In this document: piece after piece, positions 56,949 through 58,869 of the stretch
Layout: the number at the start of each line of letters is the position of its first letter
Numbering within the stretch: the stretch's first letter is position 1
Assembly (NCBI RefSeq): GCF_030159055.1
Contig: NZ_BQXQ01000021.1
Location: 1-64,000 of the forward strand
DNA from: Acidovorax sp. SUPP3334
Lineage (GTDB): Bacteria; Pseudomonadota; Gammaproteobacteria; Burkholderiales; Burkholderiaceae_C
Length of the DNA: 64,000 bases
Reading direction: 5' to 3'
The notes under the pieces: generated by a model
Seen by the model: only the letters and a program-made list of their open reading frames with translations
Told to the model about the DNA's origin: nothing
Databases searched by the model: none
Program-made: the position numbers and the translations under genes

Positions 56949-57494
56949 ATGCCCGCCCCTCCGTCCAGCCAGCTGCTGAACACCGCCCAGTCGTTCGGTG
57001 ATGTCAGCCGTTTGCTGCGCGAGGGGGTTGCCGATGAAGAGTCCCGCCAATTCCGCGATGCGCTGACATCGCTCTCCGTGCTCATCGAAGACGCCGCGCA
57101 ACTTCGCCGCGCTTGCGCGGACCCCTCCGCCATTTTCTGGAGCCTGGAGCACCTGAGGCGCGCGGCGCGTGAGCACCAGTTCTTTCTCACGGGCCTCGGT
57201 TCGGCCTGGCATGCGCTGTACGAGCTGGGCGCCTATCAGCAGGCGCTCAAGGACATGCGCGATGCCATCGACCTGTGGCACCAGGCGCTCACCCGGCAGA
57301 GCCGCACCGAGCCGGCCTGCTTCGATGCGTTCGAGCGCCTGGCCTGGCGCACGCTGGGCGAGGCATTGCTCGTCATCGACATGTACGAGCAGGGCGGCGC
57401 GGCCTTCAGCGAGCCGCCCGCCAAACCCCCTGGCGCTACGCGCCTGCCGATGCTGGCGCGCCTGCGCGGCTGGCTGGCGGGGCGCAGGCGATGA
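56949..57494 (+). CDS. Uncharacterised helical protein
   Basis: 181-residue soluble protein with no signal or membrane segment, mostly helical, with one Leu/Ala-rich helix pair (around LGSAWHALYELGAYQQALKDM) and a basic C-terminus (RGWLAGRRR). I do not recognise the family. It starts 31 nt after tldD and ends 80 nt before the aromatic leader peptide, so it probably rides on the tldD transcript. Codon bias looks coding; an antisense frame over the same DNA is the weaker candidate. Confidence 0.6.
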   Translation: MPAPPSSQLLNTAQSFGDVSRLLREGVADEESRQFRDALTSLSVLIEDAAQLRRACADPSAIFWSLEHLRRAAREHQFFLTGLGSAWHALYELGAYQQALKDMRDAIDLWHQALTRQSRTEPACFDAFERLAWRTLGEALLVIDMYEQGGAAFSEPPAKPPGATRLPMLARLRGWLAGRRR

Positions 57495-57574
57495 ACGCTC
57501 GCCGCTCCCTTTGTGGCGACGCAGCAACGCGCCGGGGATGTTGCGGCGCAAAAATCGGTGTTACATTGCCACCG

Positions 57575-57631
57575 ATGCAAGTGCGTAGCGCGTTTTATTT
57601 TTGGTTTTACTTCTCTGTCCCTGGCGGATGA
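57575..57631 (+). CDS. Aromatic leader peptide of the DAHP synthase gene
   Basis: 18 residues (MQVRSAFYFWFYFSVPGG) with seven consecutive aromatic codons at 57593-57613: four Phe, two Tyr and one Trp. The stop TGA is 36 nt before an intrinsic terminator that in turn precedes the DAHP synthase gene. This is the layout of ribosome-mediated attenuation leaders such as trpL and pheL. No strong ribosome site precedes the ATG; a TACATT hexamer at 57562-57567 raises the possibility of a leaderless message, which is speculative. Confidence 0.88.
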   Translation: MQVRSAFYFWFYFSVPGG

Positions 57632-57666
57632 GAGGTCGCGCGCAACCACCCGAGCCCTTCTCCTAG

Positions 57667-57700
57667 AAACCGCCGAAGCTGAAAAGCCCGGCGGTTTTTT
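57667..57700 (+). terminator. Attenuator terminator in the DAHP synthase leader
   Basis: Arms AAACCGCCG (57667-57675) and CGGCGGTTT (57689-57697) pair perfectly over 9 bp and the T run continues to 57700. A competing antiterminator is possible: GGCGG at 57623-57627, the end of the leader ORF, with CCGCC at 57670-57674, helped by GAGA at 57630-57633 with TCTC at 57660-57663. A ribosome at the leader stop codon would cover the upstream arm and allow termination; one stalled on the aromatic codons would not. Confidence 0.85.
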
Positions 57701-57747
57701 GTTTTCCGCTCCCCCTTTTTTCCGATCCACCCCACGAGGACGCAACC

Positions 57748-58869
57748 ATGACGGCCACTGCCAACCCCACCAGCGATGCCTGGTACCGCGACGTCGAGAA
57801 GACCAGCCAGACCGACGACGAACGTATCAAGGACATCACCGTGCTGCCTCCCCCGGAACATCTGATCCGCTTTTTCCCCATCCGGGGAACGGCGGTGGAA
57901 TCCCTGATCACGCGAACGCGGCGTGGCATTCAGGACATCATGGCGGGCCGGGACGACCGGCTGCTGGTGGTGATCGGCCCGTGCTCCATCCACGACCCTG
58001 CGGCAGCGCTGGAATACGCGCGGCGCCTGAAGGCCGTGCGCGAGCAGTACGCCGACACGCTGGAAATCGTGATGCGCGTGTACTTTGAAAAGCCCCGCAC
58101 CACGGTCGGCTGGAAGGGGCTGATCAACGACCCGTACCTGGACGAAAGCTATCGCATCGACGAGGGCCTGCGCATCGCGCGCCAGCTGCTCATCGACATC
58201 AACCGCATGGGCGTGCCGGCGGGCAGCGAGTTCCTGGACGTGATCTCGCCCCAGTACATCGGCGACCTCATCAGCTGGGGTGCCATCGGGGCGCGCACTA
58301 CCGAAAGCCAGGTGCACCGCGAGCTGGCGTCGGGCCTCTCGGCGCCCATCGGCTTCAAGAACGGCACCGACGGCAACATTCGCATCGCGACCGACGCGAT
58401 CCAGTCCGCCAGTCGCGGGCACCATTTCCTGTCGGTGCACAAGAACGGCCAGGTGGCGATCGTCAGCACCCAGGGCAACCCGGACTGCCACGTGATCCTG
58501 CGCGGCGGCAAGGCGCCCAACTACGATGCCGCCAGCGTCGCCGCTGCCTGCCAGAACCTGGAGGCCGCCAAGCTTCCCGCCACCCTGATGGTGGATTGCA
58601 GCCACGCCAACAGCAGCAAGCAGCACGAAAAGCAGCGCGACGTGGCGCGCGACATCGGCGCGCAGATCGCCGGGGGCTCGCGCAGTGTGTTCGGCCTGAT
58701 GATCGAAAGCCACCTGACCGCAGGCGCCCAGAAATTCACGCCAGGCAAGGACCAGCCGGGCGCCCTGGAATACGGCAAGAGCATCACCGATGCTTGCCTG
58801 GGCTGGGACGATTCGCTGTCGGCACTGGCCGATCTGTCGGCCGCCGTGGTGGCGCGCCGCGCCCTCTGA
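57748..58869 (+). CDS. aroG: 3-deoxy-D-arabino-heptulosonate 7-phosphate (DAHP) synthase, class I
   Basis: 373-residue AroFGH-type enzyme joining PEP and erythrose 4-phosphate, the entry to aromatic amino acid synthesis. Active-site segments are VVIGPCSIHDPAAALEYA, VMRVYFEKPRTTVGWKGLINDP, GARTTESQVHRELASGL and the metal site DCSHANSSKQ. The N-terminal ~50 residues form the effector-binding extension of class I-alpha enzymes. Expression appears to be controlled by the aromatic leader and attenuator upstream. Which amino acid gives feedback inhibition cannot be read reliably. Confidence 0.96.
   Translation: MTATANPTSDAWYRDVEKTSQTDDERIKDITVLPPPEHLIRFFPIRGTAVESLITRTRRGIQDIMAGRDDRLLVVIGPCSIHDPAAALEYARRLKAVREQYADTLEIVMRVYFEKPRTTVGWKGLINDPYLDESYRIDEGLRIARQLLIDINRMGVPAGSEFLDVISPQYIGDLISWGAIGARTTESQVHRELASGLSAPIGFKNGTDGNIRIATDAIQSASRGHHFLSVHKNGQVAIVSTQGNPDCHVILRGGKAPNYDAASVAAACQNLEAAKLPATLMVDCSHANSSKQHEKQRDVARDIGAQIAGGSRSVFGLMIESHLTAGAQKFTPGKDQPGALEYGKSITDACLGWDDSLSALADLSAAVVARRAL

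Follow-up and report, generated by a model that had tools for sequence, protein, structure and literature searches.

The DAHP synthase gene in the window analysed here (64,000 nucleotides of contig NZ_BQXQ01000021.1 of Acidovorax sp. SUPP3334) is very probably controlled by a ribosome-mediated transcription attenuator, a reading supported by the conservation of the parts of the device, by covariation in the terminator and at specific antiterminator positions, and by a folding model in which the stall positions match the antiterminator. Upstream of this biosynthetic gene lies a rho-independent terminator, preceded by a short leader ORF, predicted to be translated, with a run of end-product codons and by an antiterminator strand whose pairing is mutually exclusive with the terminator (Table 1). 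DAHP synthase stands at the entry to the shikimate pathway. The gene of the window matches the type I aroFGH family with a score of 531.6 bits (cut-off 173.2); its nearest named relatives come from Simplicispira, Ramlibacter, Polaromonas and Variovorax, which would make the host a betaproteobacterium of Comamonadaceae type, and its best solved structural relatives include chains named Phe-sensitive or phenylalanine-regulated.

The original prediction had placed before DAHP synthase an 18-codon ORF with seven consecutive aromatic codons, a 9-bp hairpin with a T run and a competing GGCGG/CCGCC pairing; when the sequence was read again, all of these coordinates held. The aromatic leader is not a product of chance: among the 113,925 nine-codon stretches of the window, counted over all six frames, five contain at least six aromatic codons, and all five overlap the run of the leader. 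The leader RNA folds better than its shuffled versions (z of -2.5; 3 of 200 shuffles as good). Simple promoter and terminator scans of the region listed neither a sigma-70 promoter nor the terminator of the leader, the latter probably because the scan allows loops of 3-8 only; the terminator is shown by folding and by comparison of relatives.

Table 1. Features of the leader region and the downstream gene, in positions of the window
Feature	Position	Strand	Basis or remark
Possible weak -35, TTGCGG	57541..57546	+	15-nt spacer; sequence only
Extended -10 element, TGT-TACATT	57559..57567	+	7 nt before leader ATG; predicted promoter function
Leader peptide ORF, MQVRSAFYFWFYFSVPGG	57575..57631	+	18 codons; ATG 57575, stop 57629-57631; predicted leaderless
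Sensor, 7 consecutive aromatic codons F Y F W F Y F	57593..57613	+	TTT TAT TTT TGG TTT TAC TTC (4 Phe, 2 Tyr, 1 Trp); codons, conservation and folding model
Putative protector (1:2) hairpin, 5' arm UUCUC	57611..57615	+	last Phe codon and start of Ser codon
S2, GGCGG, antiterminator strand	57623..57627	+	inside protector hairpin
Putative protector hairpin, 3' arm GAGAG	57630..57634	+	
Rho-independent terminator	57667..57700	+	stem 57667-57675 / 57689-57697; arms AAACCGCCG / CGGCGGTTT
S3, CCGCC	57670..57674	+	partner of S2 (antiterminator) or S4 (terminator)
S4, GGCGG, within second terminator arm	57690-57694	+	
T run of terminator	57695-57700	+	
DAHP synthase, type I aroFGH family	57748..58869	+	TIGR00034 match

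Conservation of the leader at DAHP synthase loci

DAHP synthase was present in 149 of the 150 genomes of the host family that were searched. Upstream regions were read for 141 of these 149; one is cut by a contig end 98 nt upstream, leaving 140 complete regions. Of the other eight genomes with a DAHP synthase hit, G140 and G093 were partly read. In the alignment of orthologous upstream regions proposed with the original prediction, the aromatic leader, called at a threshold of at least four aromatic codons in nine, is kept in all 140 complete regions of the family and in 62 of 80 named loci. The densest nine codons of the family leaders hold four aromatic codons in two cases, five in six and at least six in 132 (138 reach at least five). 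The threshold of four is loose: 67 of the 80 named loci reach it, five of them (L034, L053, L049, L063 and L069) without a start codon or fitting leader, and these were removed by hand. The final set contains 203 leaders, namely 62 named leaders, 140 family leaders and L226; L224 (142 nt) was left out of the counts.

The 18 named loci without a leader comprise L019, which is cut by a contig end, and 17 others, from Polynucleobacter, Cupriavidus (two loci), Thauera, Azoarcus, Rhodocyclus, another member of the Rhodocyclaceae, Methylotenera, Chitinimonas, Thioalkalivibrio and MAG contigs. Orthologs with the hairpin and without the aromatic codons, which the original prediction had named as counting against it, did not turn up among them: none of the 18 has the CCGCC/GGCGG terminator. 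Upstream of the DAHP synthases of Polynucleobacter (L033-L035) and of a similar uncultured contig (L053), at 74-77% identity, we found no leader or terminator, an apparent loss as far as the sequences tell. Four MAG contigs labelled Planctomycetota, Verrucomicrobiia, Gemmataceae and Devosia (L046, L047, L049 and L080) carry betaproteobacteria-like DAHP synthases at 62-70% identity, and binning errors may lie behind these labels.

Paralogs of DAHP synthase are without the leader in all eight cases read (L002, L223, L225 and L227-L231). L002 is the second DAHP synthase of the Acidovorax genome, 56% identical to the first; its upstream region was read and has no aromatic run, which rules it out as a second carrier of the leader. 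Three further matches to the element in this genome are weak (E 0.03-0.4), have no DAHP synthase within 3 kb and were taken as chance. In genome G140 (contig 27), two DAHP synthase genes lie in tandem, the upstream one (L226) with the aromatic leader MLFRAYFFFWFYLCRPAVRG and the downstream one (L225) without a leader.

In the window, the leader is preceded on the same strand by tldD and a small gene; the small ORF between tldD and the leader (56949-57494) matched no NCBIfam family at E 0.001. The hairpin might accordingly be a mere terminator of an upstream tldD operon, with the aromatic ORF incidental, and one or both genes do lie upstream in 73 of 108 loci, but we hold this to be exceedingly improbable. 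Of 91 leaders checked, 24 have neither gene in the 1.1-1.5 kb upstream, which rules out termination of an upstream gene as the whole story; the leader is moreover not confined to this family or even to the class, and S2, which lies outside the hairpin, tracks changes in S3.

Alternative pairings and the position of the ribosome

For the comparison of pairings we used an alignment (A1) of 60 of the 203 leaders, chosen by hand with the Oxalobacteraceae-type leaders left out and with S3 variants included deliberately, which raises its counts of cells changed on both sides. The order of elements in A1 is fixed: ATG, an aromatic run mostly ending TTTTGGTTCTC, GGCGG, GAGAG, ACCGCC, GGCGGT and the T run. 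The residues that follow the aromatic run vary between leaders (PGG, LADRE, KAVE), and since GGCGG is read in different frames, what is kept downstream of the run is RNA rather than peptide. Pairing in A1 reaches 90.7% for the antiterminator, 96.7% for the terminator and 91.3% for the protector, with 10, 10 and 5 cells changed on both sides, respectively, and none of 500 shuffles reaches these cell counts. For the antiterminator, however many as 121 of the 500 shuffles equal or exceed the real alignment in pairs with changes in both strands, and 386 do so in pair types. RNAalifold alone predicts the terminator only.

The counts for each helix were repeated on 202 leaders (one longer than 190 nt was left out), with helices slid out of register as controls. 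The terminator pairs in 96.7% of 1806 cells versus 24-66% when slid, and its 27 cells changed on both sides versus 1-11 are a clear result. The antiterminator pairs in 88.4% of 1411 cells versus 16-62%; its 29 cells changed on both sides versus 3-33 (33 at +3, 26 at +2) are not specific as a helix-wide count, so that the case for this helix rests on matched S2/S3 variants and on the fraction paired. The protector UUCUC/GAGAG is conserved and fits the folding model, with pairing in 89.9% of 997 cells versus 49-90% when slid (90.1% of 706 at -2); its covariation is not above that of the slid controls (7 cells changed on both sides versus 2-16), and its covariation score in A1 (0.119) is exceeded by that of the +2 slide (0.135).

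Matched variants are as follows. Among the 203 leaders, S3 reads CCGUC in ten, and in eight of these, which may represent one event because the sequences are related, S2 carries the compensating A (seven GACGG, one GACGA). CCGCU in S3 goes with AGCGG in S2 in both leaders that have it, and GACGG is found in S2 of none of the 190 leaders with CCGCC. Since the terminator of CCGUC leaders keeps a G-U pair at this position, with its second arm remaining CCGGCGG, the change in S2 answers to the antiterminator. An S2-S3 complementarity score of at least 15 is reached by 71% of leaders versus 8.7% of shuffled regions. Both structural elements of the original prediction are thus borne out by compensatory changes, the hairpin in its helix-wide count and the competing pairing at specific positions. 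With 5-7 pairs the antiterminator is weaker than the terminator, and it would therefore need kinetic priority.

The effect of a ribosome was modelled by masking an assumed footprint that reaches from -15 to +13 nt relative to the A site, with the RNA made only up to the first arm of the terminator. For the window leader, the modelled probability of the antiterminator is 0.79-1.0 for a ribosome at each position of the aromatic run and 0.16-0.39 for one on the five preceding codons; it is 0 after the run, at the stop or without a ribosome. The mean over the 140 family leaders is 0.97, 0.95 and 0.94 at three, two and one codons before the last aromatic codon and 0.83 on it, then falls to 0.38, 0.07 and 0.01 past it and to 0 at the stop. 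The upstream edge is blurred in the family model, where the means are still 0.69-0.81 at a distance of at least eight codons ahead of the last aromatic one, and the family mean without a ribosome is 0.37, not 0. Alternative footprints (front of 10-17 nt, computed for the window and every third family leader) move the permissive stretch by one or two codons: at a front of 17, no more than 0.24 is left for the final two codons of the aromatic run in the window, and at a front of 10 the first aromatic codon is at 0.39 and the next Ser codon becomes permissive. In the model, the sensor thus covers those codons at which a stall is effective. A point against the attenuator is that only 13 of the 140 family leaders have their stop codon 9 nt or less from the start of GGCGG (median distance 21).

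TnaC arrests the ribosome by sensing free Trp, and the leader peptide could likewise stall its ribosome as a nascent chain that senses free aromatic amino acids. The conservation of the aromatic core would agree with this, but we consider it very improbable, for the order, length (4-9 aromatic codons) and composition of the run all vary, and stalling by a plentiful free ligand would have the wrong sign for a biosynthetic gene. Among the Phe codons of the leaders (L001 and L083-L222), 382 of 597 are TTT, versus 23 of 240 in 29 DAHP synthase genes (TTC in the other 217); the bias may be read either as a preference for a rare codon or as a need for unpaired, U-rich RNA.

Start of transcription and of the leader peptide

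In 124 of the 140 family leaders the motif TGnTAnnnT has its end 5-9 nt ahead of the ATG, versus 1 of 851 plus-strand ATGs of the window, and the shorter TAnnnT occurs at this distance in 129 of 140 versus 6 of 851, as well as in 36 of the 62 named leaders. The box is TACATT in 95 of the 140. Its gap to the ATG is 7 nt in 79 family leaders, 8 in 33, 6 in 11 and 9 in 6, and because gaps of 6, 7, 8 and 9 put the motif in all three frames, it is not coding. Just one of the 140 has a Shine-Dalgarno-like 4-mer in the stretch 4-18 nt ahead of the leader ATG; before DAHP synthase one is found in 94 of 140, a figure not strictly comparable with that of the leader because the start of DAHP synthase is not fixed and 40 nt were allowed. 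This arrangement points to transcription starting at about 57574-57575, and the leader is probably translated from leaderless RNA, with the ATG at the 5' end.

A leader with a normal 5' UTR, in which TGCTACATT would be a conserved RNA or DNA-binding element and translation would start by another route, is rather unlikely. It would suit the -35, which is poorly conserved across the family and whose candidate in the window the promoter scan does not list, and it would also suit the leaders of Oxalobacteraceae and Burkholderia type, in which a -10-like box is found farther upstream, about 22-37 nt from the ATG. It fits poorly, however, with the 139 family leaders that have no Shine-Dalgarno 4-mer and with a gap held at 6-9 nt over all three frames, as expected of a -10 element with the start at the ATG. 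In the Oxalobacteraceae- and Burkholderia-type leaders (L055, L061, L064, L075; L244, L249) the distant box reads TATAGT or TATAAA; these leaders would so have a short 5' UTR, leaderless and leadered versions of one attenuator would coexist, and leaderless translation would not be essential to the device. Leaderless attenuator RNAs are known in Streptomyces as well as in Sinorhizobium meliloti.

With a leaderless start, regulation may be pictured as follows. Transcription would begin at or within about 1 nt of the leader ATG, as the -10 box suggests, and the leader peptide would be translated once the 5' end emerges. When Phe-, Tyr- and, in the host family, Trp-tRNA are charged, the ribosome would pass the aromatic codons and reach the stop, where it would cover GGCGG or let the UUCUC/GAGAG hairpin, in its putative role of protector, close around it; CCGCC would then pair with the downstream GGCGG, and the terminator formed would release a transcript of about 125 nt. 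Shortage of any one charged tRNA would stall the ribosome on the matching codon, where it covers UUCUC; the freed GGCGG would pair with CCGCC before the second arm of the terminator is made, and the polymerase would read into DAHP synthase.

Amino acids sensed, known systems and spread

Among the 140 family leaders, Phe codons occur in 140, Tyr codons in 136 and Trp codons in 131. All 62 named leaders have Phe and Tyr, and 47 have Trp. In 59 readable leaders from 14 other families (L286, L302, L304 and L306, whose peptides were misread, were left out), Phe is found in 59, Tyr in 53 and Trp in 22; all six leaders of family f23 have Trp, and none of the five in each of f11, f20 and f44. In family f13 (L267, L268 and L280), Phe is the sole aromatic codon in three of three leaders, before the same device. 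By its codons, the amino acid set of the sensor changes between families, Phe being universal, Tyr common and Trp dependent on lineage. Of the attenuation by all three aromatic amino acids that the original prediction had proposed, the attenuator itself is supported by leader, terminator and antiterminator; three-way sensing stands as a statement about codon content, with all three kinds of codon in 127 of the 140 family leaders.

It is possible, though doubtful, that the attenuator senses Phe and Tyr, or Phe alone, and that the Trp codon is a passenger, kept by history or because TTTTGG helps to keep the region unpaired. The absence of Trp from 15 named leaders and from 37 of the 59 leaders of other families, of which 59 have Phe and six lack Tyr, would agree with this, but in 107 of the 140 family leaders Trp holds the penultimate position of the sensor, at which a stalled ribosome yields the antiterminator in the model. 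Also in favour of the passenger reading, the Phe-Tyr-Phe leader of Corynebacterium glutamicum aroF is reported (PMC11802643) to respond to Phe and not to Tyr, so that codon content by itself does not establish the amino acid to which a leader answers.

The mechanism is classical, and mixed-codon leaders are already known; the version on proteobacterial DAHP synthase seems uncatalogued. In the open literature we found no description of an FYW leader on a proteobacterial DAHP synthase, although older comparative surveys may mention one, and no match to the leader peptide strings. No Rfam family scored above threshold in the window region or in 12 relatives, and weak matches to ArcZ, a miRNA and RNAI, all below threshold, were taken as chance. 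Phe_leader (RF01859, cut-off 55 bits) has no match in the window region; its best score in the same genome is 28.0 bits, elsewhere, and the best of the 12 relatives (L205) reaches 36.6 bits, below the cut-off. Trp_leader (RF00513, cut-off 41 bits) likewise has no match in the window region, and its best score in the genome, again elsewhere, is 26.1 bits.

The nearest precedent is the aroR leader of aroF in Corynebacterium glutamicum, reportedly the subject of Neshat et al. 2014. As far as the accessible parts of the sources go, it has Phe-Tyr-Phe codons and raises expression upon ribosome stalling (PMC11802643), and it is also noted in PMC4046766. Compared by description only, it is similar to the window leader in placing mixed aromatic codons before a DAHP synthase gene and differs in coming from an actinobacterium and in having three aromatic codons and no Trp. 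The trpL and pheL leaders of E. coli share with the window the leader peptide, the alternative hairpins and the rho-independent terminator, whereas they are single-amino-acid sensors on trpE and pheA; they have a ribosome binding site. Multivalent attenuators are known in E. coli at ilvGMEDA (Ile, Val, Leu) and thrABC (Thr, Ile), where, as here, one leader carries codons for several amino acids of a branched pathway; the amino acids are others and the mRNAs are leadered. The trpL of Sinorhizobium meliloti is a Trp sensor. Its RNA, rnTrpL, is described in the accessible text as a leaderless attenuator RNA starting at the AUG of the leader peptide (PMC7298713, PMC10117765), and is thus a leaderless attenuator in a proteobacterium, but one that precedes trpE(G). 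The aroF gene of Shewanella has a predicted attenuator on a proteobacterial DAHP synthase, listed as sensing Tyr-tRNA, with no FYW run described in the part of the source available (PMC2659441). The Leu/phe leader RF01743 of Lactococcus (L. lactis), which a table of PMC2864571 names, is likewise listed under two amino acids, in another organism.

A covariance model of the element (R1) was used in large searches with strict filters, so that the following counts are probably lower bounds. Within the order, R1 matched 77 of 300 genomes, which span 15 families (one represented by a partial, weak match). It further matched 5 of 274 genomes of a class sample, two of them outside the host family and both in family f63, 15 of 60 genomes of f63 itself, and 36 of 299 genomes of a phylum sample that overlaps the others. 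Flanks were examined at 31 loci, 29 from the 77 order matches, with the window itself left uncounted, and the two from the class sample that fall outside the host family; DAHP synthase follows downstream at every one. In the phylum search, nine of ten further loci, in three families outside the class that we take to be rhizobial alphaproteobacteria, precede an ORF read as DAHP synthase by shared motifs; their leaders are such as NYFWYFSYDSSLAAGG, and CTATAT lies 7-8 nt before the ATG in six of the nine. By likeness to the named locus L078, f63 would be a Xanthomonas-type family. Judged by these matches, the attenuator is widespread, in other families of the order, in the Xanthomonas-type family and in three families outside the class.

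The DAHP synthase genes of E. coli are under TyrR and TrpR. The regulons of both repressors are described in gammaproteobacteria in the accessible part of PMC5343134. We would tentatively suggest, with less confidence than doubt, that the leaderless three-amino-acid attenuator is an old proteobacterial device and the main switch of DAHP synthase in Burkholderiales, Xanthomonas-type gammaproteobacteria and rhizobial-type alphaproteobacteria, where it would take the role that TyrR and TrpR have in enterics. Because the sensing ORF would start at the first nucleotide of the RNA, entry into the shikimate pathway would then read the capacity for leaderless (70S) initiation beside tRNA charging. If all three end products have codons in one conserved attenuator, it becomes understandable that a single isozyme can be tuned to the aromatic pool in its entirety. 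Such an attenuator would be a natural multi-input sensor, and its probable leaderless start would make it a clean system for the coupling of leaderless translation and transcription. R1 now provides a model for an element that went unrecognised by Rfam 15 in the regions searched.

The tenth further locus of the phylum search (L322; genome G801, contig 43) was left out of the count of DAHP synthase leaders. It has no DAHP synthase in the stretch read, and its Trp-rich leader MQSYVIDNFWWSFWWS is followed by a similar CCGCC/GGCGG terminator; it may be an attenuator of the trp type, belonging to a further family of the class.
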